Shown here: one piece after another, positions 1-11,645 of the stretch
How positions within the stretch are numbered: position 1 is the stretch's first letter
Layout: each line of letters starts with the position of its first letter
Assembly: GCA_003138895.1 (NCBI GenBank)
Contig: PLHJ01000018.1
Span: 512 to 54,087 of the forward strand
Length of the DNA stretch: 53,576 bases
Direction of reading: 5' to 3'
Origin: Acidimicrobiaceae bacterium
GTDB lineage: Bacteria; Actinomycetota; Acidimicrobiia; Acidimicrobiales; RAAP-2
Notes under the pieces: model-generated
Database searches by the model: none
What the model was told of the DNA's origin: nothing
The model's input: only the letters and a program-made list of their open reading frames with translations
Program-made: the position numbers and the translations under genes

Positions 1-4
1 CATG

Positions 5-30
5 GAGTAATCCTCTCAGAGGAATTACTC
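5..30. repeat. Imperfect inverted repeat (possible hairpin or terminator)
   Basis: The arms GAGTAATCCT (5-14) and AGGAATTACTC (20-30) pair around a 5-base loop with one bulged A. No T-run follows on the + strand, so a terminator role is not shown; it could also be the end of a feature that lies outside the window. Confidence 0.4.
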
Positions 31-120
31 TCCAACTTTCCCGGGGCGAATCAATTGTCAGCGTCCCGTTTGTAGTGCTGACAAATTCAGCCGGAATCAG
101 CCAGTCAACTCGCACCCTAT

Positions 121-237
121 CTACTTTTTACTATTTGTCGATGCAATTCGGGATGAATCTACCGGGGCGGGCCGCATCAACGGGACGTTCGGTGCCTCCA
201 CCTGGCGCTTGATGAAATCGAAAACGATTGGGCTCAT
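121..237 (-). CDS. Possible 38-residue small protein
   Basis: I do not recognise this ORF. It starts with ATG at 235-237 and begins MSPIVFDFIKRQ, with a mixed hydrophobic and charged N-terminus and a polar, lysine-ended tail. Its support is the promoter spacing: TAGGAT lies exactly 6 bases before the ATG, the same leaderless layout seen before many larger genes here. The hexamer also resembles a Shine-Dalgarno site, so either reading favours translation. No homologue is known to me and chance cannot be excluded. Confidence 0.35.
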   Translation of the reverse strand: MSPIVFDFIKRQVEAPNVPLMRPAPVDSSRIASTNSKK

Positions 238-243
238 GTGTTA

Positions 244-249
244 ATCCTA
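244..249 (-). promoter_or_regulatory. Putative -10 hexamer of the 38-residue ORF
   Basis: TAGGAT on the - strand ends 6 bases before the ATG at 237, fitting a leaderless start. It could instead act as a weak ribosome binding site. Confidence 0.35.
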
Positions 250-297
250 TATACCTCCGGCTAATTGCGTCCGGTCAACAAAAAGTTGCAGAAACGG

Positions 298-303
298 TAG
301 AAT
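298..303 (+). promoter_or_regulatory. Putative leaderless -10 hexamer before the 42-residue ORF
   Basis: TAGAAT ends 6 bases before the ATG at 310, the same hexamer and spacing as before leuS. No clear -35 is seen. Confidence 0.5.
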
Positions 304-309
304 TGGTTC

Positions 310-438
310 ATGCCCCGCGACGCCTTTGAAGGCTACGACGAGCCAGTCAACATAGACATGGAGCCAGAAGAGGCGCTGAAACTATTGCTCGCCACGGAGC
401 CGAGTGCCGACGCTATTGAACCCGTACTAGACGCCTAG
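310..438 (+). CDS. Small acidic protein of 42 residues
   Basis: The short ORF starts MPRDAFEGYDEPVNIDMEPE and continues with a leucine-rich stretch and an acidic tail. It reminds me of small actinobacterial hypothetical proteins with a GYDEP...EEAL core, but this is recollection, not a search. Two layout features support it. TAGAAT lies exactly 6 bases before its ATG. Its TAG stop shares the tetranucleotide CTAG (435-438) with the stop of the convergent gene, as other convergent pairs here do. The function is unknown. Confidence 0.55.
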   Translation: MPRDAFEGYDEPVNIDMEPEEALKLLLATEPSADAIEPVLDA

Positions 439-1031
439 TGCGCTTCGTTTTCATCTTGGGGAAGCGGTATTTCCCAATAAGTAATCCATATTGGGGGAGG
501 GTCAGCAACTGGGTTGAACCCCTCTTTGATGGGGAGCATCCTGCAACGCTCAATCAACCGTGTCAACAATTCTGTTGTCTCTCGAAACCCCCCAATAACT
601 GAAACGAGATGGTTTGGAGGCATCAGTACGATGCTCTGATCTAAGCCCCAGGTCTCTTGGACAAACTCAAACACCGCACCGGCCCAAGCTTCGTATTGCT
701 CCTGCGATGACGTTCCATCAAGAGACATCCGGGCACCCCGCAAATGAAATCGAGCGAGCATAGCCTCGGCAGTTTCGCGCAAATGCCTTCTTTTCAATTG
801 TGCTCGACGACCGGGCAGGGGGAGCCGCTCATTTGACACCGCGATGAGCGCGTAAACACCCAAGATCATCATTACGAGTGCCCCTGCCCAGGGCCACCAC
901 AGCGCGGTCAAATCCCGAGAGGGCGGTGCTGCGACAGCGATGAAGGTCCAATCGCTTAACACGACAATCCCCGAGATGAGAAGGGCGACCCCGAGAGCGC
1001 CCCATAAGGCTCTGTGCTCGGAATCTTCCAT
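435..1031 (-). CDS. Membrane protein of unknown function, two N-terminal helices
   Basis: This 198-residue protein has two hydrophobic segments, roughly residues 9-34 and 44-66. A soluble, probably cytoplasmic region of about 130 residues with a basic start (RRAQLKRRHLRE) follows. I recognise no family. The ATG at 1031 is supported by TATGGT ending 6 bases upstream. The gene converges on the 42-residue ORF with overlapping stops. Its leaderless layout matches the core genes to the right and not the operon that starts at 1322. Confidence 0.75.
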   Translation of the reverse strand: MEDSEHRALWGALGVALLISGIVVLSDWTFIAVAAPPSRDLTALWWPWAGALVMMILGVYALIAVSNERLPLPGRRAQLKRRHLRETAEAMLARFHLRGARMSLDGTSSQEQYEAWAGAVFEFVQETWGLDQSIVLMPPNHLVSVIGGFRETTELLTRLIERCRMLPIKEGFNPVADPPPIWITYWEIPLPQDENEAH

Positions 1032-1037
1032 AGCAAA

Positions 1038-1043
1038 ACCATA
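1038..1043 (-). promoter_or_regulatory. Putative leaderless -10 hexamer
   Basis: TATGGT on the - strand ends 6 bases before the ATG at 1031. The rest of 1044-1321 shows no other feature I can defend. Confidence 0.5.
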
Positions 1044-1321
1044 CTCCGTATTGGGTTTGTCATGTTACACGTCGCCACGAAACCTCATCGAGTGGGTCAC
1101 GCGATGGTGGTGTGCGATAAGGTGACACCAGTTGGGACCAATGTTCCAACAGTCGCTCTGGACCTCGGCGGCGGATGCCAAAAATGGCGATTACGTGCCC
1201 GAGGAGATTCAGTGAGACGTTTGTCGCACCCCAACGCTGAAGTGTTCAATCCGTTCGTCCGCGATGCCATTCGCGAAGACGGCCCGTTACCTCGAACCGT
1301 AGTCTCGAACATCAACCGGTA

Positions 1322-2734
1322 ATGGACGTCACCGCACAGGACGCGACCGGCGTAGCGGGCGCGGGACGCGCGAAGAAGGTCGGTCTCGTCTCGGCACTGG
1401 CGTTCGCGGTGGGGGCGATGATCGGCGGCGGGGTGTTCACCCTATCGGGTACCGCGATTGACCGGGCCGGATCGGGTGCGCTCATCAGTTACGCGCTTGC
1501 CGGAGTGATCATGCTGTTCTCAGCGTTGTCGTTCGTCGCGATCGCCGCGCGTGCGAAGCCCGACGAGTCTGGCTACGGCGCCATCACCGTCCTGCTGGGG
1601 CGTCCGTGGCGCTTCTTGGTGATGTGGGGCTTCTACCTGAACGCCCTAGCCGCGGTGGCGTTCCTGGCGGACTCCTTTGGTTCCTATCTGCATGGTTACT
1701 TTCTGCACTCCTTCACCACTATCGAAGCCGGAACTGTGTGTATCGCGCTGCTCGTCGGGCTCAACCTGGGACCGGCCGTGTGGGTCGGGCGCGCCGAGAC
1801 GTGGGTCGTCGCTATCAAGCTCGGGTTGCTGCTCGTGTTCATTGGCTGGGGGTTGTCGTCCTTCTCACCCGCGCACTTCTCGCCCTTCGCCCCGCACGGC
1901 TCGACGTCGATCCTCACCACGAGTGCCCTGTTGTTCACCGCGTACACCGGCTTCAACGTCGTCACCAACATCGCGCCCTCGCTGCGCGACCCTGAAAAAA
2001 CGGTGCCCCGGGCGGTCCTGGGAGCGGTGTTGATCTCGGTGGCGATGTACATGCTCGTGGTCGTCGCGATGCTCCAGAGTGGCATCTCGCACTTCGGCCT
2101 CGCCGGCGTCAGTCAAGCGGCGAACCACCTGATGGGCTCGTGGGGTGGTCAACTCGTCGCCTTCGCCGCGTGCTTGTCAACCCTGTCGGGCGCCAACGCG
2201 GTGATGCTCGGCGGCAGTGAGATCGCCTTGCGTCTGGTGGTTGACGCGGACATTCCGGCATTCTTCGGCAAGACCACGAAGAACGGCTTCCCCTGGATGA
2301 GCGTCGGTCTGATCGGCGTCATTGCTCTCGTGCTCGTGCGGTTCACGAGCATCATCGACGTCATCGTCCTGTGCAACATCGTCGCGCTGGCCGCGATGGT
2401 GATCGTCAACGCGTCCGCGGCCGTGCTCGCTCACCGGGGCTTTCCTGGTTCCGGGTACCGCATTCCCGGTGGACCAGTGATCCCGATTGTCGCCGGGATC
2501 GCCTGCGTCGTCCAATTCTTCTCCTACAGCCTCGTCCAACTCGGAGCCGCTGCGCTGGCGATGCTGGTTGGCTTCGCGCTCTACGCCTTTCGCGGTTACG
2601 GACGCAATCTCTCCACCGAAGAGGCTCGCGAGAAGTTGCGCGAGTCGATTCGCGACCTCGAGACGCCGCTGGGTCGAGCCCTGCTGCACCCATTTCTTCA
2701 CCGCCACATCCCCGCCCTAGATAGGAGCAATTAA
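1322..2734 (+). CDS. APC-superfamily amino-acid permease
   Basis: This 470-residue protein should sit in the inner membrane and move amino acids, probably as a proton symporter or exchanger. About 12 hydrophobic segments are visible. The N-terminal segment carries the APC signature GAMIGGGVFT (residues 31-40), the unwound helix-1 region that binds the substrate backbone in this superfamily. Family length is usually 430-500, so it is complete. The ATG at 1322 has no good ribosome binding site and no TANNNT at leaderless distance, and it overlaps the stop of a doubtful upstream ORF. It is the first large gene of a GC-richer operon. The substrate cannot be told from sequence. Confidence 0.85.
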   Translation: MDVTAQDATGVAGAGRAKKVGLVSALAFAVGAMIGGGVFTLSGTAIDRAGSGALISYALAGVIMLFSALSFVAIAARAKPDESGYGAITVLLGRPWRFLVMWGFYLNALAAVAFLADSFGSYLHGYFLHSFTTIEAGTVCIALLVGLNLGPAVWVGRAETWVVAIKLGLLLVFIGWGLSSFSPAHFSPFAPHGSTSILTTSALLFTAYTGFNVVTNIAPSLRDPEKTVPRAVLGAVLISVAMYMLVVVAMLQSGISHFGLAGVSQAANHLMGSWGGQLVAFAACLSTLSGANAVMLGGSEIALRLVVDADIPAFFGKTTKNGFPWMSVGLIGVIALVLVRFTSIIDVIVLCNIVALAAMVIVNASAAVLAHRGFPGSGYRIPGGPVIPIVAGIACVVQFFSYSLVQLGAAALAMLVGFALYAFRGYGRNLSTEEAREKLRESIRDLETPLGRALLHPFLHRHIPALDRSN

Positions 2735-2785
2735 ATGTCAGGCAAGACCACCACGCTTCACTCACACACTGGCGCTACGACATGA
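2735..2785 (+). CDS. Possible 16-residue coupling mini-ORF
   Basis: An ATG at 2735 directly follows the permease stop and is preceded by TAGGAG at good ribosome-binding distance. The ORF encodes MSGKTTTLHSHTGATT. Its stop overlaps the ATG of the next permease as ATGA. It may serve to deliver ribosomes to the second permease. It is too short to judge by composition. Confidence 0.35.
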   Translation: MSGKTTTLHSHTGATT

Positions 2786-4278
2786 GCGTCGCCGCGACGA
2801 ATCCCTCTGAGGCGGCGGGCACGTTGGCCGCGCCGCTGCGCATCGTGGCCAAGCGCAACGTCATCTCCTGGAAGACGATGACGTTCATGACCGTCTCGGT
2901 GGTGTGCAGCCTGCGCGCCGCCCCGACCATGGCGGTCTTCGGCTTGGGCTCGATCCTCCTCTACGCCATACCTGCAGTGTTGTTCTTCGTGCCCGAGACT
3001 CTGATCTCGGCCGAACTCGCATCGGCCTGGCCGGGTGGCATCTACCGATGGGTCACCGAGGCGTTCGGTCCCAAGATCGGACTCTTGGCGGTGTGGTGCC
3101 AGTACGCGCAGACAATTTTCTACTACCCGGCGTTGCTCGCCTACGTGGCGAGCACCCTCGCCTACGTCGTCGATCCGAGACTGGCCAGCAGCGGGATGTT
3201 CACCGCAATCGTGATCATCGGGGTCTACTGGGCCGCGGCGATCATCTCGGGTCGAGGGATGAAGGCGGTCTCGGGACTGTCGAGCGCCGGCAGCATCATC
3301 GGAACGATCATTCCGGGCATCGTGCTCGTCGGACTGGGCATTGCCTACCTCGCCGGAGGGCACGCGTCGGCCGCTCCGATGCACGTGCACGACTTGTTGC
3401 CCGCCTGGGCCGGGATCGCGAGTCTCGTGCTCGTGGTGAACAACGTCCTCTCCTTTGATGGGATGGAGGTCAACGCGGTGCACGTGTCGGAGTTGAAGGA
3501 CCCCAAGCGCGAATTCCCCAGGGTGATGTTCTGGTCCATCGGCATCTGCATGCTGGTCTTCATCCTCTCGGCCCTGGCGGTCGCCTGGGTAGTTCCCAAC
3601 AGCACGGTCAGCCTGACGGCCGGCGTGATGCAGGCCTTCAGCAACTTGTTCGGCGTGTTCCACCTCGGTTTCATGACACCGGTCGTGGGAGTGATGATTA
3701 TCCTCGCGATGTTGAGCGGAATGATCGCCTGGCTGGCCGGTCCCTCGACGGGGTTGCTCCTGATCGGTCGCGAGGAGGGGTTCATACCTCCTTACTTCCA
3801 GAAGCTCAACAAGCAGGGCATGCAGATGAACATCTTCATCTGGCAAGGGATCATCACGTCGATCATCGCGTGTCTCTACGCGTTCATTCCCGTCGTCTCT
3901 GACGCGTACTGGATCTTCGAGGTGATGACCATCCAGATATATCTCGTCATGTACTTGTTGATGTATCTCTCGGCCATGAAGTTGCGCAAGTCACAACCCG
4001 ATCGTCCGCGCGGATACCGCACTCCGGCGCTCAGGACGATGTGTGGTATGGGGATCTTCACGACGGTGGCGGCGTTCTTCTTGGGCTTCGACCCACCATC
4101 ACAGTTCCACAGTGGTGGCACGCTCGTCTACATATTGATCGTGGCGGGCGGCGTCGGGATCATGGGTCCCGGGGCGGCACTGCTGCTCGACAAGATCAAG
4201 AAGCCCCACTGGAAGACCTTCCAGTCCAGTACCGGAATGAGCGCGTTCGCCACCAGTTCCACGGACGCAAAGGAGTAG
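2782..4278 (+). CDS. Glutamate:GABA-antiporter-like permease (APC superfamily)
   Basis: This 498-residue multi-helix transporter has the N-terminal pattern of the GadC/glutamate:GABA antiporter branch: SLRAAPTMAVFGLGS (from residue 43), then SAELASAWPGGIYRWVTEAF. Members exchange an amino acid for its decarboxylated or related product, or import amino acids. No decarboxylase lies beside it, so GABA exchange is unlikely to be its role here. Its neighbours are another permease and a dipeptidase, which points to uptake or export of amino acids released from peptides. The start ATG at 2782 overlaps the mini-ORF stop. Length is normal for the family. Confidence 0.85.
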   Translation: MSVAATNPSEAAGTLAAPLRIVAKRNVISWKTMTFMTVSVVCSLRAAPTMAVFGLGSILLYAIPAVLFFVPETLISAELASAWPGGIYRWVTEAFGPKIGLLAVWCQYAQTIFYYPALLAYVASTLAYVVDPRLASSGMFTAIVIIGVYWAAAIISGRGMKAVSGLSSAGSIIGTIIPGIVLVGLGIAYLAGGHASAAPMHVHDLLPAWAGIASLVLVVNNVLSFDGMEVNAVHVSELKDPKREFPRVMFWSIGICMLVFILSALAVAWVVPNSTVSLTAGVMQAFSNLFGVFHLGFMTPVVGVMIILAMLSGMIAWLAGPSTGLLLIGREEGFIPPYFQKLNKQGMQMNIFIWQGIITSIIACLYAFIPVVSDAYWIFEVMTIQIYLVMYLLMYLSAMKLRKSQPDRPRGYRTPALRTMCGMGIFTTVAAFFLGFDPPSQFHSGGTLVYILIVAGGVGIMGPGAALLLDKIKKPHWKTFQSSTGMSAFATSSTDAKE

Positions 4279-4281
4279 GTG

Positions 4282-4764
4282 ATGATTCAAGAACTCGACA
4301 TTTCGTCACCCGTCGGCGAGCACCCCATCCCCGAGCGACACGCTTACACCCATAACAACCGCTCGCTCTACGCATTTACTGCGGTCTTCATCGCCGTGCT
4401 CATCATCGTCAGTTTCGTGACCTTCACTCGACCGACGAACAACGCGACGGCGACCACGAAGGCGGTCGCGTTGGAGACTCTCTTAAAGAAGGAGGGATTG
4501 CCGCTGCCCACGAGTTTGAGTGAGATCTCGAACTCACTGGGCACGAGTGCCGCGGGAGTCTGCGACACCTCGGGCTACAACTTGACCGACGCGATCTTCA
4601 ACCAGCAATTCAGTGTCGGGGCGACCGCGGGACGCACGCTACCGGTCGAACGAGAGGTCCTCGATGGTCAGTTGGCGATCCTCGACACGTACTGCCCCGG
4701 TCGGGTGAGCGCCTTCGTGCGGCATTTTCACGCCTACGACCTCTATCAGTTGAGCCGACCATGA
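4282..4764 (+). CDS. Small membrane-anchored protein of unknown function
   Basis: The protein has 160 residues: a polar N-terminus of about 28 residues, one strong hydrophobic helix (about residues 29-47, LYAFTAVFIAVLIIVSFVTF) and an outer domain with two cysteines that could form a disulfide. AGGAG lies at good distance from the ATG at 4282; the overlapping GTG at 4279 is a poorer choice. It sits between a permease and a dipeptidase in the same operon, so an accessory role in peptide or amino-acid handling is possible. I recognise no domain. Confidence 0.7.
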   Translation: MIQELDISSPVGEHPIPERHAYTHNNRSLYAFTAVFIAVLIIVSFVTFTRPTNNATATTKAVALETLLKKEGLPLPTSLSEISNSLGTSAAGVCDTSGYNLTDAIFNQQFSVGATAGRTLPVEREVLDGQLAILDTYCPGRVSAFVRHFHAYDLYQLSRP

Positions 4765-4895
4765 CCGTTCGTTCACTTCAGAATGATTCCACCAGGGCGC
4801 ACGACCACGCTCGAGAGTGGCCCCGAGGGTCGGCATCATTAACGAAGTATCCATCGCTGCTCGAACCTTCGAGTCGCCACGACCTAAAGAGGTAG
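4761..4895 (+). CDS. Possible 44-residue ORF overlapping its neighbour as ATGA
   Basis: The ATG at 4761 overlaps the stop of the anchored protein (ATGA), and the ORF ends 5 bases before the dipeptidase start. It encodes a basic, low-hydrophobicity peptide with no recognisable motif. In GC-rich DNA this could be chance. The main argument for it is its position in a chain of overlapping starts and stops. Confidence 0.2.
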   Translation: MTVRSLQNDSTRAHDHAREWPRGSASLTKYPSLLEPSSRHDLKR

Positions 4896-4900
4896 GACCC

Positions 4901-6628
4901 ATGTGCACAACACTCATCATCACCAAGGGAGCGATGGCCGACGGTTCAATGGTCGTCACCCACTCTGACGACGACGAACTCGGCGACCAGACGCTCATCC
5001 GGGTCCCGGCGCAGGATCACGCGCCCGGCGCCACCCGCGACATCTTGCGCGAGCACTACCTGCACCCTCGGATCGTCTCGTCTGAGCGCGGTCCCGGGTA
5101 TCAACCAGCGCCGGGCACGGTCCCCTCGTGGGCCCTGCCGCTCGGGAGTATTGCCCAACCTGCGCACACCTACGCGTACTTCGACGGCAATTACGCAATC
5201 ATGAACGAGCACAACCTGATGATCGGTGAGTGCACGAATGGCACGAAGTACGAGCCCGAAGCGGTCTCGGTCGCCGAGGCGCAGGAGCGTGGAATCCACG
5301 TGCGTCTGCTCTATAGCCAAGAACTCTCTCGCATCGCTCTCGAGCGCTGTGTCTCGGCCCGCGACGCGGTGGTGATGATGGGGGAGCTCATCGAGGAGTA
5401 CGGACTCTATTCGACCGGTGAGACGCTCCTGGTCGCCGACGAGGACGAGGCGTGGGTCTTTGAGATGTGCGCGCTGCCCGATGACATCTATCACTCCGCC
5501 TGGGTGGCCCAGCAAGTCCCCGACGGTGAGATCTTCGTGGCGGCGAACGAGTTCCGCATCCGTGGGGTGTGGCCGACCGACGCGGACCTCCCGGTTCCCC
5601 CGGGCAAGCCACCTGTTCAGCTGTACTCGAAATTCCTCTTCCCGGGTCTCGAGAGACTCGGCTGGTGGGACCAGTCGTCGACCCCGGGTTTCTTGGACTG
5701 GCTCCCGGCCGTCAGCGCGGGTGAATACAACCACCCCTATTATTCGCTGCGACGGGTGTGGCGCGTGCTCGACCGGGTCAATCCCGACCTGGCGCTCAGC
5801 CCGTGGGTGACGCGCGGCTACTCCGACCCGGCCGATGGTGGGTACGCCACCGATTATCCCTTCTCCATCCGTCCCGCTCGTCCCCTGCAACTCGAAGAGG
5901 TCTTCGACCTCTACCGGGACCATTACGAGGGGACGCAGTTCGACCTCACCAGGGGCATCGCCGCGGGTCCCTACGGCGATCCCCACCGGTTCGCGGGTCC
6001 CTACGACGGTGCGCAGAACGATGTCGGTGGTCAGTTGCACCGATCGGGCGCGTGGGAGCGGCCGGTCTCGGTGTTCTACCAGGGTTACACCTACGTCAAC
6101 CAGATCCGTCCGGGCGTACCCGAAGCGAACAAGGGACTCTGCTGGTTCGGACCCGACGTCTCCAAGACCACGTGCTTCGTTCCATTCTCATCCAAGATGG
6201 CGAGTCTGCCGGTCGAGTATCAAAAAGGCAACCCGCAGTCCTACGACCGCACCTCGGCGTGGTGGGCTTTCGATTTCGTTGCCAATTGGGCCCGACTGAA
6301 TTACGAACGAATGACCCGAGTGGACATCACCCCACTGCAGCGCCACCTAGAACGCGAAGGCGCTCGCCTCGTCACATCGTGCGACGCGGCCTGCGCGGGG
6401 ACCGGGGACGCGACGGACCTCGTGCACGTCACCAAGTCATATAGCGAACACGCCCAGTCCGTCCTCGAGTCCTGGCACGACCTCGGGGACCGGCTGATCG
6501 CCAAGTACTCCGATGGCTACAGCAATCCCGACGACGGAGTGTCTCCGCACGCCGTGGGCTACAGCGCCGAGTGGCTGGCGCTCACTGACTATCGTGACGG
6601 ACCCGTTTCGTACGGGATGCGCCTATGA
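4901..6628 (+). CDS. Peptidase family C69 dipeptidase (PepD-like)
   Basis: The 575-residue N-terminal-nucleophile hydrolase cleaves dipeptides in known family members. The start at 4901 is chosen because MCTTLIITKG places the predicted nucleophile at Cys2, exposed when Met is removed, and because AAGAGGT lies at good distance upstream. Further family features are HSDDDELGD near residue 22 and NEHNLMIGECTNGTK, the family's NEH/GE region. The upstream in-frame extension to 4817 would bury the catalytic cysteine and is rejected. Together with the two permeases it suggests cleavage of peptides and transport of the resulting amino acids. Length is slightly above the usual 460-550. Confidence 0.88.
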   Translation: MCTTLIITKGAMADGSMVVTHSDDDELGDQTLIRVPAQDHAPGATRDILREHYLHPRIVSSERGPGYQPAPGTVPSWALPLGSIAQPAHTYAYFDGNYAIMNEHNLMIGECTNGTKYEPEAVSVAEAQERGIHVRLLYSQELSRIALERCVSARDAVVMMGELIEEYGLYSTGETLLVADEDEAWVFEMCALPDDIYHSAWVAQQVPDGEIFVAANEFRIRGVWPTDADLPVPPGKPPVQLYSKFLFPGLERLGWWDQSSTPGFLDWLPAVSAGEYNHPYYSLRRVWRVLDRVNPDLALSPWVTRGYSDPADGGYATDYPFSIRPARPLQLEEVFDLYRDHYEGTQFDLTRGIAAGPYGDPHRFAGPYDGAQNDVGGQLHRSGAWERPVSVFYQGYTYVNQIRPGVPEANKGLCWFGPDVSKTTCFVPFSSKMASLPVEYQKGNPQSYDRTSAWWAFDFVANWARLNYERMTRVDITPLQRHLEREGARLVTSCDAACAGTGDATDLVHVTKSYSEHAQSVLESWHDLGDRLIAKYSDGYSNPDDGVSPHAVGYSAEWLALTDYRDGPVSYGMRL

Positions 6629-6859
6629 CGGCTCGGGTTCGTGATCGGTGTCGACGGCTGTCGAAGGGACCGGGCGAGATTGCCTGTACGCACTCCGCGG
6701 ACGGGTGCCCTCTGTCGGCGCCGATCCAAAGCGACCGAGGTCGTGTCGAACGAAAGATTCTCTTTGGACGAGAGAAGCGAAGCGAGAGCGCAGAACAGTT
6801 CGCCTCTCGCCACGCCGTCATGCGTGGATTCTCGCCAGTGTCGCGGGCAGGAGTGCGTC

Positions 6860-8275
6860 GTGGCGATTAGAGGGTCCCCAGAACCGACGTCGAAGGATCC
6901 TTCTGCGGCCCGTGTCTCAGACGCTCACGATAGCCAGGATCTCAAGACCCTGCCTCTCGCCGAGGTCGAGAAACAGCTCGCCTCCTCGCCCCAGGGACTC
7001 ACCCAGTCGGAGGCGGCCCGGCGCCTTGACCAGTACGGGGCCAATGAGATCGTCGCGAAGAAGGTCAATCAATTCCTCAAGTTCCTCGGCTACTTCTGGG
7101 GGCCGATCCCGTGGATGATCGAGGTGGCGGTCGTTCTCTCGGGAGTGTTGGGCCACTGGCCAGATTTCGCCATCATCTTCGTGCTCCTCGTCGCGAACGC
7201 CGGTATTGGTTTCTCTGAGGAGCATCAGGCCGGTAAGGCGATCGACGCGCTGAAGGCGCAACTGGCGATGAAGGCACGTGTGATGCGCGACGGCGTGTGG
7301 ACGAACCCGCCAGCGAGGGAGCTCGTCCCCGGCGACGTCATCCGACTGCGTCTGGGTGACATCGTCCCCGCGGACGCCCGTCTCCTCGATGGCGACCCGG
7401 TCGAGGTCGACCAGTCGGCGCTGACCGGTGAGTCCCTGCCCGCCACGCGAGGTCCGGGGGACGCGGTGTTCTCCGCCTCCATTATTCGCCAAGGAGAGAT
7501 CGGTGCCCTGGTGTACGCCACCGGCGCGAACACGTTCTTCGGCGAGACGGCAGAACTCGTCCAGGACAGCGTGACCGTGAGTCACTTCCAACGCGCGGTG
7601 CTGAAGATCGGCACGTACCTCATCATCCTGGCGGTGGCGATGGTGGCCGTCATCATCATCGTTTCGACGGTTCGCGGCGACCCCTTCTTCACGACGCTGC
7701 AATTCGCCCTCGTACTCACCGTGGCTGCTATTCCCGTGGCTATGCCAACGGTGCTCTCTGTGACCATGGCAGTCGGTGCGCGCCTACTGGCGAAGAAGCA
7801 GGCCATCGTCAGTCGACTCGTCGCGATCGAAGAACTCGCCGGAGTGGACGTGCTCTGCACGGACAAGACCGGCACCTTGACCCAGAACAAGTTGACCCTC
7901 GGCGACCCCTTCACCGTCCAGGGGGTCTCGCCCGACGACGTTATTTTGTACGCGGCGCTGGCTTCGCGCGCCGACGACAACGACACCATCGATCTCGCGG
8001 TGCTCGGTGGCCTCGCCAGCGAGAGCGCGTTGAGTGGGTACCACGTGGAGCACTTCCAGCCGTTCGAGGCGGTCGGCAAGCGCACCGAGGCCACCGTCAA
8101 GAGCGCTGACGGTTCCACCTTCAAGGTGACCAAGGGCGCCCCCCAAGTCATTCTCGCGCTCTCGAGCCTCACTGGCGAGGTGAAGGCGAATGCCGACGTT
8201 TCAATTACCTTGAAAACTCGCTTAAACCAAGGACTTTCAGTGGAGATGATGGGACTCGAACCCACGACCTCTTGA
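6860..8275 (+). pseudogene. Truncated P-type H+-ATPase (PMA-like), 3' half missing
   Basis: The sequence reads as a type III plasma-membrane proton ATPase: actuator motif LTGES (nt 7421-7435), phosphorylation motif DKTGTLT (Asp codon at 7862) and N-domain KGAPQVIL. Homology stops near nt 8200, in the nucleotide-binding domain. The GDGVNDAP hinge and helices 5-10 of an 800-odd-residue enzyme are absent. The last 24 codons read through foreign sequence and antisense to tRNA-Ala. The likely start is GTG 6860, preceded by CAGGAG; the ATG-initiated extension to 6641 is arginine-rich and unlike the family. It cannot be a working pump. The cause is either integration or deletion beside the tRNA, or an assembly join. 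Confidence 0.88.
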
Positions 8276-8313
8276 CTGCCAGTCAAGCGCTCTACCAGCT
8301 GAGCTACACCCCC
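8241..8313 (-). tRNA. tRNA-Ala(GGC)
   Basis: The 73-base gene folds as a full cloverleaf: a 7-bp acceptor stem, D arm GCTC/GAGC, anticodon stem CTTGA/TCAAG with loop CTGGCAG (anticodon GGC) and T loop TTCGAGT. The acceptor contains the G3-U70 pair that marks alanine tRNAs, and the discriminator is A73. CCA is not encoded. The 3' end faces the truncated ATPase, the usual side for integrase-mediated insertion. Confidence 0.96.
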
Positions 8314-9176: not shown

Positions 9177-11645
9177 ATGGCTCGCCCCTACGACGTTGTA
9201 GAAATTGAACGAAAGTGGCAGGATCGTTGGCGCGACGAAGGCACGTACAACGTTGACAATGATGACCCTCGTGAGCGTTTCTACGCGTTGTGCATGTATC
9301 CGTACCCGTCGGGCAAAGCGCACCAGGGACACGTTCGTAATTACACCTTCGGCGATTTAGTTGTCCGCTATCAAACGATGCTTGGAAAAGCAGTGCTTTC
9401 GCCTCTGGGGTTTGACTCCTTTGGTTTGCCAGCTGAAAACGCCGCAATTAAAGATGGCAGCCATCCGAGGACGTACACGGAGGCCCGTATACATGAACTG
9501 AAGACGTCAATTCAGCGCCTTGGCGCGGTTCATGATTGGCGCCGTGAGGTTCGTTCACACGATCCCGAGTACATCAAGTACTCACAATTGATTTTCCTAC
9601 GTTTTCTCGAAAATGATTTGGCCTACCGAGCAGAAGCCCCCGTTAATTGGTGCCCAGGCTGCGGGACGGTTCTCGCGAACGAACAAGTACACGCCGATGG
9701 TACGTGCGACCGCTCGGGCGATCTTGTCGAGCGAAAAAACCTCGAGCAATGGTTTTTTCGCATCACAAAGTACGCCGATGAGTTGCTTCAAGACATCGAC
9801 ACCTTGGAGTGGCCTGAGCGCGTAAAGACGATGCAGCGAAATTGGATCGGTCGGTCAGAAGGTGTTGAATTCGATCTCGTTTTCGCGGACAACGATGCAC
9901 TGGCGCTTCGTGTGTTCACGACTCGACCCGACACTGGATTTGGCGTGACGTACGCGGTGGTCGCACCCGAGCACCCTTTGCTCGACGTGCTTACGCTTCC
10001 TGAGCATGACGAAGCAGTGCGAGAACTCGTTGAACGTGCGGGTTCCGCCAGTGAGGTGGAACGGTCCTCATCATCGGAGTCGGGCATTGGTCTGGAAAAA
10101 CGCGGTGCCTTTACTGGCAGTTACGTCATCAATCCGTTTAATCAACAAAAAGTGCCGGTCTTCGTTGCTGACTACGTCCTTGGTACCTACGGCACGGGCG
10201 CCATAATGGCGGTGCCCGGTGAAGACGAACGCGACTACGCCTTTGCTCAGGCCTACGGCTTGCCAATTATTCGTACCGTGGAGCGCCCAGCTGATTTTGA
10301 AGGCGGCTCCTACAACGGCGATGGCCCTCACATCAATTCAGATTTCTTGGACGGACTGCAGATTACGGAAGCGAAGAGAGAGGCCACGACGTTTTTGGAA
10401 GCGAATGCCGCTGGCATTGCCAAGGTCAACTTTCGACTCCGCGATTGGTTGGTATCACGTCAGCGTTTTTGGGGATGCCCGATACCGATCATCTACTGCG
10501 ATAACTGCGGCATTGTGCCCGTTCCCATCGAGGACCTACCAGTTCTGGCACCCGACGATGTGACCATGACGAGCACGGGACAGTCGCCATTGGCAACACA
10601 CGAAGGTTTTCGAAACGTCACGTGTCCCAAGTGTGGCGGAAAAGGAAAACGTGAAGCCGACACGATGGATACCTTTACGGACTCGTCGTGGTATTTCTTG
10701 CGTTTCGCCGATCCTTTTACACCGGGTGTGCCCTTTGATCCCAAGGAAGTTGCCAAGTGGATGCCCGTCGATCAGTACATCGGAGGAATCGAACACGCGA
10801 TCTTGCACCTTTTATACGCGCGTTTCTATATGAAGGCTCTCGTGGACATTGGTTTGGCGCCGGGCTTACCTCGCGAACCGTTCAAGCGTTTGTTTACGCA
10901 AGGGATGATTCGCATGGGCGGATCAAAGATGTCCAAGTCCAAAGGGAATTTGATTGCCCCTGAGATGTACTTCGATACTGTCGGAGCAGACAGTCTGCGT
11001 TTGTTCCACCTCTTTCTTGGACCGCCGGCGGACGATTCCGACTGGACGGAACAATCCGACGAACTGATTGACGGCTGCGCGCGCTTTCTCGACCGTTTGT
11101 ATCGACTAGCCATGCTGGAAGAAGTGAATTTTCATGACACGTTTGACGCTGAGGACTTGGCGGTCGTTCGATCAGTCCATCGAACGATTGTGCGCGTCAC
11201 TGAAGGACTCGATCGCTGGAGTTACAACACGTCCGTGGCTGCACTGATGGAACTTTTAAATACCACCAGCAAATGGGCGAGAAGTGAGGGCGGCGCGCAT
11301 CAAGCGACGCTGGACGATGCCGTTGACACGATGTTGAAGCTGCTCGCTCCCATGGCTCCGCACATGCCAGCAGAACTTTGGGAGATTCGACATGGCGTTT
11401 CGTCGTCGTTACATGCCCAGAGTTGGCCCGTTGCCGACGAGGCGATGTTGGTAAACGAAACGGTGGTGATGGCGGTCCAGATAAACGGCAAGGTTCGTGC
11501 TCGTTTGGACGTTGATCCAGAGATTTCCGAAGATGATGCCGCCCGCGCCGCTCAGGATTCGCCCGAGATTCAGCGCGCTCTTGAAGGAGCGACCGTGCAG
11601 CGAGTTATTGCTCGTCCGCCACGTCTCGTCAATATTATTTCGTGA
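9177..11645 (+). CDS. leuS: Leucyl-tRNA synthetase
   Basis: The 822-residue class I synthetase charges tRNA-Leu in the cytoplasm. Visible are the HIGH-region variant [18 protein letters not shown] (near residue 41), the editing-domain segment [14 protein letters not shown], zinc-type cysteine pairs ([17 protein letters not shown]) and the KMSKS loop [11 protein letters not shown]. The C-terminal anticodon-binding part ends with VNGKVRAR-like [12 protein letters not shown]. Length is typical of the bacterial type. It is probably leaderless from TAGAAT at 9165. The next gene starts inside its stop codon (GTGA), so the two form an operon. Confidence 0.97.

Follow-up and report, generated by a model that had tools for sequence, protein, structure and literature searches.

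Integrases often insert at the 3′ ends of tRNA genes and leave the tRNA whole, and tRNA-integrated islands with tyrosine integrases are the described systems to which the locus presented here can be compared most directly. Clusters that combine GadC-type amino-acid antiporters with decarboxylases are known as acid-resistance clusters. Actinobacterial integrative conjugative elements (AICEs) also integrate into tRNA 3′ ends, mostly via tyrosine recombinases; the paper on these elements (PMC3218068) describes the use of serine recombinases for entry into tRNA genes as rare and reports no AICEs in the Acidimicrobidae of its sample.

The window, meaning the whole stretch of 53,576 nucleotides that was analysed, covers positions 512-54,087 of contig PLHJ01000018.1 (G000:C16) of an Acidimicrobiaceae genome (G000; 1.74 Mb, 26 contigs, 86% complete). 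As in tRNA-integrated islands, a tRNA 3′ end is the presumed attachment site, the tRNA is kept whole, and the composition beyond it is foreign; the corresponding loci of relatives share further traits of such islands, namely an integrase 65-225 nt from the tRNA and direct attachment repeats. The window differs in that an integrase and a second attachment copy were not found, and in that its tRNA-proximal gene is a truncated ATPase. With AICEs, the locus would share the integration site at a tRNA 3′ end, but no replication or transfer gene was recognised in its segment, which is cut by the contig end (a Pfam scan of the segment genes gave no replication or FtsK/SpoIIIE-type transfer domains). 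The likeness to GadC-type clusters lies in a GadC-like antiporter in the window and a tyrosine-decarboxylase-like gene adjoining a homologous cluster in a relative; the difference is that no decarboxylase occurs in the window segment. On balance, and with moderate confidence, the window is read here as containing the right edge of an eroded genomic island, with amino-acid and acid-tolerance genes, at a genus-wide tRNA-Ala hotspot. As such, it is a further case of a known, ordinary kind.

Gene Content and Composition of the Locus

The features of the locus, in window coordinates, are as follows.

32-8216, plus strand: stretch matched at 100% identity, with no mismatch, by the full length of PLER01000011.1 (8185 bp), a contig of MAG bog_594
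435-1031, minus strand: 198-aa protein of unknown family (Pfam scan), encoded in core-like DNA to the left of the GC-rich segment
1322-2734, plus strand: APC-family amino-acid permease (Pfam and profile searches)
2782-4278, plus strand: GadC-like amino-acid antiporter (NF053662 at 606 bits, below the cut-off of 640)
4279-4764, plus strand: protein of 161 aa, family unknown, which is conserved in genome G075, again between the GadC-like and C69 genes
4817-6628, plus strand: C69-family dipeptidase-like protein (Peptidase_C69; NF033678 at 137 bits, below the cut-off of 250)
6860-8198, plus strand: truncated P-type (TIGR01647-like) proton ATPase, N-terminal ~446 codons (homology and domain searches)
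8199-8239, no strand: AT-rich 41-nt spacer between the ATPase break and the tRNA 3′ end (sequence; weak arm similarity)
8240-8313, minus strand: intact tRNA-Ala(GGC) with no encoded CCA, its gene ending in CTCCAC and followed by TGA (ARAGORN and alignment)
9177-11645, plus strand: leuS, the core neighbour conserved on the tRNA 5′ side (Pfam and relatives)

The original prediction described the DNA left of the tRNA, from about 1.3 kb, as GC-richer than that on the right. Raised GC and GC3 values were indeed found, with the rich part at 1322-8198 (GC 0.63). The five genes of this segment have GC3 values of 0.77-0.86, compared with 0.53-0.61 in four genes right of the tRNA. Over 1-kb intervals, GC is 0.58-0.66 for 1.0-8.0 kb and drops to 0.52-0.55 for 8.0-11.5 kb, and the DNA from 8200 onward has a core-like composition, as the prediction had described for the right side. 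Since 32-1321 (GC 0.54) is core-like as well, the GC-rich segment is flanked by core-like DNA on both sides. The proposed comparison of composition was carried out with an order-4 Markov model, in which none of 45 sampled 6.9-kb pieces of the window genome was as extreme as 1322-8198. The segment is thus compositionally foreign to this genome, and it is rare in the genus: the C69 dipeptidase gene was present in only 2 of 98 other genomes, bog_594 (G069) and G075.

In G075 (L212, G075:C37), the order of permease, antiporter, 161-aa protein, and C69 dipeptidase is retained at 75-87% identity. The tyrosine-decarboxylase-like gene follows C69 in place of the ATPase, and on the opposite side there is an aminotransferase-like gene and then ISL3-type and Mu-transposase-type genes. 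The GC3 of the cluster (0.77-0.84) exceeds that of the leuS gene of the same genome (0.69). Because this cluster is also GC-rich, composition cannot date or place the arrival of the segment, and it would be the signature of a cluster that travels, not solely of its donor. Lying near transposase genes, the G075 cluster may be a mobile acid-tolerance cluster. Searches of phage records, plasmid records, and viral contigs did not return the cluster. No plasmid record covered 80% of the segment (33 matched, and 7 of the 8 listed matched the ATPase alone), phage records gave a single match of 94 bases, and no relatives of the C69 protein were found in viral contigs.

The Truncated ATPase and the tRNA-Ala(GGC) Gene

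The ATPase homology had been placed as breaking off near 8200, shortly before the 3′ end of tRNA-Ala(GGC), and this can now be set precisely. Homology to plasma-membrane-type proton ATPases ends at 8198/8199, leaving 41 nt up to the tRNA 3′ end, which points towards the ATPase; the reading frame continues without homology to 8275. In an alignment with a close intact homologue, 15/20 bases are identical at 8180-8199, then 5/20 and 1/20 in the following stretches. The listed protein homologues continue beyond the break, mostly in the form VN-F--RGF/Y-SLGVA, with two exceptions: L119, cut off by the end of its contig, and L133, in which N follow. The fragment matches positions 1-402 of the 755 in TIGR01647, where its 532 bits stay under the cut-off (615.5), and contains the Pfam domains E1-E2_ATPase and Cation_ATPase_N. 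The motifs DKTGT (residue 335) and KGAP (residue 425) are present, while the C-terminal half of a full-length TIGR01647 H+-ATPase is missing, and with it the hinge motif GDGVNDAP, which lies at residue 578 of an intact 970-aa copy. From the established chemistry of P-type ATPases, the fragment is unlikely to be a working pump, because DKTGT is kept but GDGVNDAP is missing. It is a truncated relative that is probably not functional.

The window genome also has a second, intact proton ATPase (G000:C21:105802-108156), with a frame of 979 aa that is 76% identical to the fragment and a core-like GC of 0.545 over the half that matches it. When the second half of an ATPase was used as a query, the window genome gave one strong match, at 81%, which belongs to this separate copy, whereas the match in bog_594 was only weak; the missing half was found neither in the window genome nor in bog_594, which are 86% and 70% complete, respectively. 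ATPases 82-85% identical to the fragment occurred in 4 of 60 relatives searched. None of eight fetched loci with ATPase homologues, one of them the second copy of the window genome, contained tRNA-Ala or leuS. The nearest named hits to the fragment, the first five listed, come from palsa and bog MAGs assigned to Acidimicrobiaceae.

The spacer between the break and the tRNA may be an attachment arm or the terminator region of the tRNA. Its similarity to the arms of tyrosine-integrase elements is weak, with 32 of 1000 dinucleotide shuffles scoring as well, and 3 of 54 other loci score as high in arm-likeness (these 54 include G023, G026, and G086, whose tyrosine integrases lie on the other strand). 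Scored separately, neither half of the spacer stands out (553/1000 and 295/1000 shuffles as good). The spacer had looked stronger as an attachment arm under a mononucleotide shuffle (0/1000 for the mean score and 40/1000 for the best score), and this apparent strength faded under the dinucleotide shuffle. Two features of the tRNA itself were also considered. An encoded CCA is absent in 40 of 70 relatives' loci, including 9 of 14 beside tyrosine integrases and 0 of 6 beside serine recombinases, and its absence does not discriminate as a sign of integration. The altered 3′ half of the tRNA is explained more simply by concerted change than by import with an element, because tRNA-Ala(CGC) of the same genome agrees with it throughout the T-stem and the 3′ strand of the acceptor and differs by one T-loop base.

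The tRNA-Ala(GGC) Hotspot in the Genus

The tRNA-Ala(GGC) pattern was present in 73 of 99 genomes of the genus, the window genome included, and of its 76 occurrences in relatives, 75 were retrieved. The leuS gene lies within about 2 kb on the tRNA 5′ side at 52 of these 75 loci. The hotspot count was made on those with at least 1.5 kb on the tRNA 3′ side, which were likewise 52 of the 75. A comparison with relatives had been recommended in the original prediction. Tyrosine integrases were found at 14 of the 52 loci, with their near ends 65-225 nt from the tRNA (that of G014 is only a 103-aa fragment), and serine recombinases at 6 (four long, two fragments); five of these 20 recombinases were checked and all five were confirmed by Pfam. 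G034 has a second, perfect copy of the final 43 nt of the tRNA at a distance of 11.3 kb, and in G023, 47 nt of the tRNA 3′ end are repeated perfectly 10.4 kb away. These were the only two elements followed to both ends, and both are bounded by tRNA repeats, which correspond to attL and attR of complete elements. In the relatives, tRNA-Ala(GGC) is a true integration site. The 30-nt sequences just past the tRNA are almost all different (65 of 66 distinct), and no conserved native neighbour was seen on the 3′ side, where, apart from the recombinases with their partner genes, each family was limited to three or fewer of the clustered loci.

The genes carried at these loci are varied. The G034 element has an AAA plus Mrr-type nuclease gene between its 43-bp tRNA repeats (L061:10019-11233, G034:C31). 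At the second locus of G035 (L309:2260-3828, G035:C120), a Wadjet JetA gene (DUF3375) starts at most about 200 nt from the tRNA-Ala(GGC) 3′ end, and JetA homologues are also found at the hotspot loci of G080 and G109. Antiphage genes are thus among the cargo of the hotspot. At L062:8287-10113 (G035:C86) and at the loci of G007, G033, and G088, long genes for serine recombinases lie directly against the 3′ end of tRNA-Ala. They are followed by Replication-relaxation-type genes, confirmed in G035 and with homologues in the three others.

Within the window genome, the picture is different. The original prediction noted neither an att repeat copy nor an integrase, which agrees with the searches made here: the 29-nt tRNA 3′ end, with up to 3 mismatches, has no second copy within the window, and profiles built from the hotspot integrases detected no integrase or remnant in the contig left of the tRNA. 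Elsewhere in the genome, the sequences that match the tRNA 3′ end strongly are other tRNA genes; four weak matches (14-27 nt, E 0.37-2.4) lie outside ordinary tRNA genes, do not reach the acceptor end in their alignments, and look like chance. The two PF00589 proteins of the genome are both of Xer-like length (about 300 aa), with housekeeping neighbours by eye. In all, neither an element integrase nor a convincing second att copy was found in this 86%-complete genome. Left of the tRNA, the contig continues for only 8.75 kb, compared with 10.4 and 11.3 kb for the two measured elements of relatives, and the distal att copy could therefore lie outside the assembly.

Origin of the Segment

The edge of the segment close to the 3′ end of an intact tRNA, its foreign composition and patchy distribution, and the use of this tRNA as an attachment site in relatives are what would be expected of a genomic island. 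A distal direct repeat of the tRNA 3′ end and an integrase gene or remnant, which would also be expected, were not detected. The proposed sequence of events is that mobile elements of the genus recombine with the 3′ half of tRNA-Ala(GGC), so that the tRNA stays whole. GC-rich accessory genes (two amino-acid transporters, the C69 dipeptidase, and the proton ATPase), or an element that carried them, would have reached the 3′ side of the tRNA in this way, and later deletion would have removed the integrase, the att copy at the far end, and the C-terminal half of the ATPase. The idea of an integrated segment thus stands as far as a foreign, rare segment beside an integration site used in relatives is concerned. 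We infer its placement by an integrase, and only infer it, because the element integrase and the second att copy were not found.

An ordinary rearrangement, for example IS-mediated or illegitimate, followed by a deletion that ended in the 3′ spacer and cut the ATPase, would make the tRNA a bystander. The missing integrase and att copy would fit this course of events, as would the transposase genes near the homologous G075 cluster and the gene order, which departs from that of G075 after C69. A transposase-like fragment with an HTH_21 domain also lies left of the N gap (G000:C16:1-411, L067). However, an edge within 41 nt of a tRNA that is used as an att site by elements of many relatives would then be a coincidence, and this course is regarded as fairly unlikely.

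The left end of the window has its own peculiarities. The contig extends 511 bases to the left, and a run of 100 N ends at the base directly before the window. Directly after this run, window positions 1-31 form an imperfect palindrome, just beyond which the identical contig PLER01000011.1 begins; a second copy of the palindrome was absent from the parts of the genome fetched as loci.

An Identical Contig in a Second Genome

PLER01000011.1 (G069:C82) belongs to bog_594, a different species from the window genome. Apart from this contig the two genomes are distant, with leuS DNA about 70% identical. It is the only match of at least 95% over at least 60 bp between the sampled parts of both genomes, namely 21 pieces of G069 (two of them all N) and 30 pieces of G000. 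The contig contains the ATPase break and 18 nt of the AT-rich spacer and stops at window position 8216, 24 nt before the tRNA base 8240. The break is therefore present in two assemblies and the link to the tRNA in one, and no independent sequence spanning 8216/8217 was found. Misbinning, recent transfer, or a join in the window contig may explain the twin. Its composition is mixed. The part 32-1321 is ordinary for the window genome in the order-4 Markov comparison, and none of 129 bog_594 pieces reached its score; 1322-8198 lies inside the bog_594 range, at its edge, with 2 of 16 pieces at least as far towards G000. As the first 1.3 kb of the twin contig resembles the window genome and not bog_594, this contig may be misbinned, and the mixed composition would favour misbinning or transfer.

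A chimeric join had originally been named as the main alternative, and it is retained at a lower weight. In its surviving form, a foreign bog_594 contig would have been joined to the own tRNA-leuS contig at about 8216/8217. The exact end of the identical contig at this position, the lack of any other such match between the sampled parts of the two genomes, and the composition of 1322-8198, which the range of bog_594 includes and that of the window genome does not, all agree with an artefact. The 100-N gap just left of the window shows the same tendency, and contigs also break at this tRNA elsewhere: the leuS contig of bog_594 stops 22 nt into its tRNA-Ala, and 10 of the 75 relatives' loci reach a contig end inside the tRNA or at most 50 nt away. 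Nevertheless, the twin's left 1.3 kb does not resemble bog_594, several of the best spacer-to-arm alignments (weak) run across 8216/8217, and, since the bog_594 contig already contains the break and part of the spacer, the truncation was not created by the join. Such an artefact is considered improbable. A simple, random chimera at the ATPase break itself is unlikely, because the bog_594 contig shows the same break plus 18 nt.

Significance

An identical 8.2-kb contig in the bins of two species is a caution that island DNA may easily be misplaced in metagenome bins. It is also conceivable, although unlikely, that the hotspot beside leuS is a genus-wide exchange site, contested by tyrosine- and serine-recombinase elements of unrelated origin that trade antiphage systems (Wadjet, Mrr) as well as genes for acid tolerance, and that the identity between the two species is a transfer caught within a peat community. 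A literature search of limited scope returned no report of the hotspot in this genus. Exact attachment repeats from two relatives document the hotspot here for a lineage of uncultured actinobacteria that has received little study, and the edges of accessory segments in this lineage can be read from the sequence alone.
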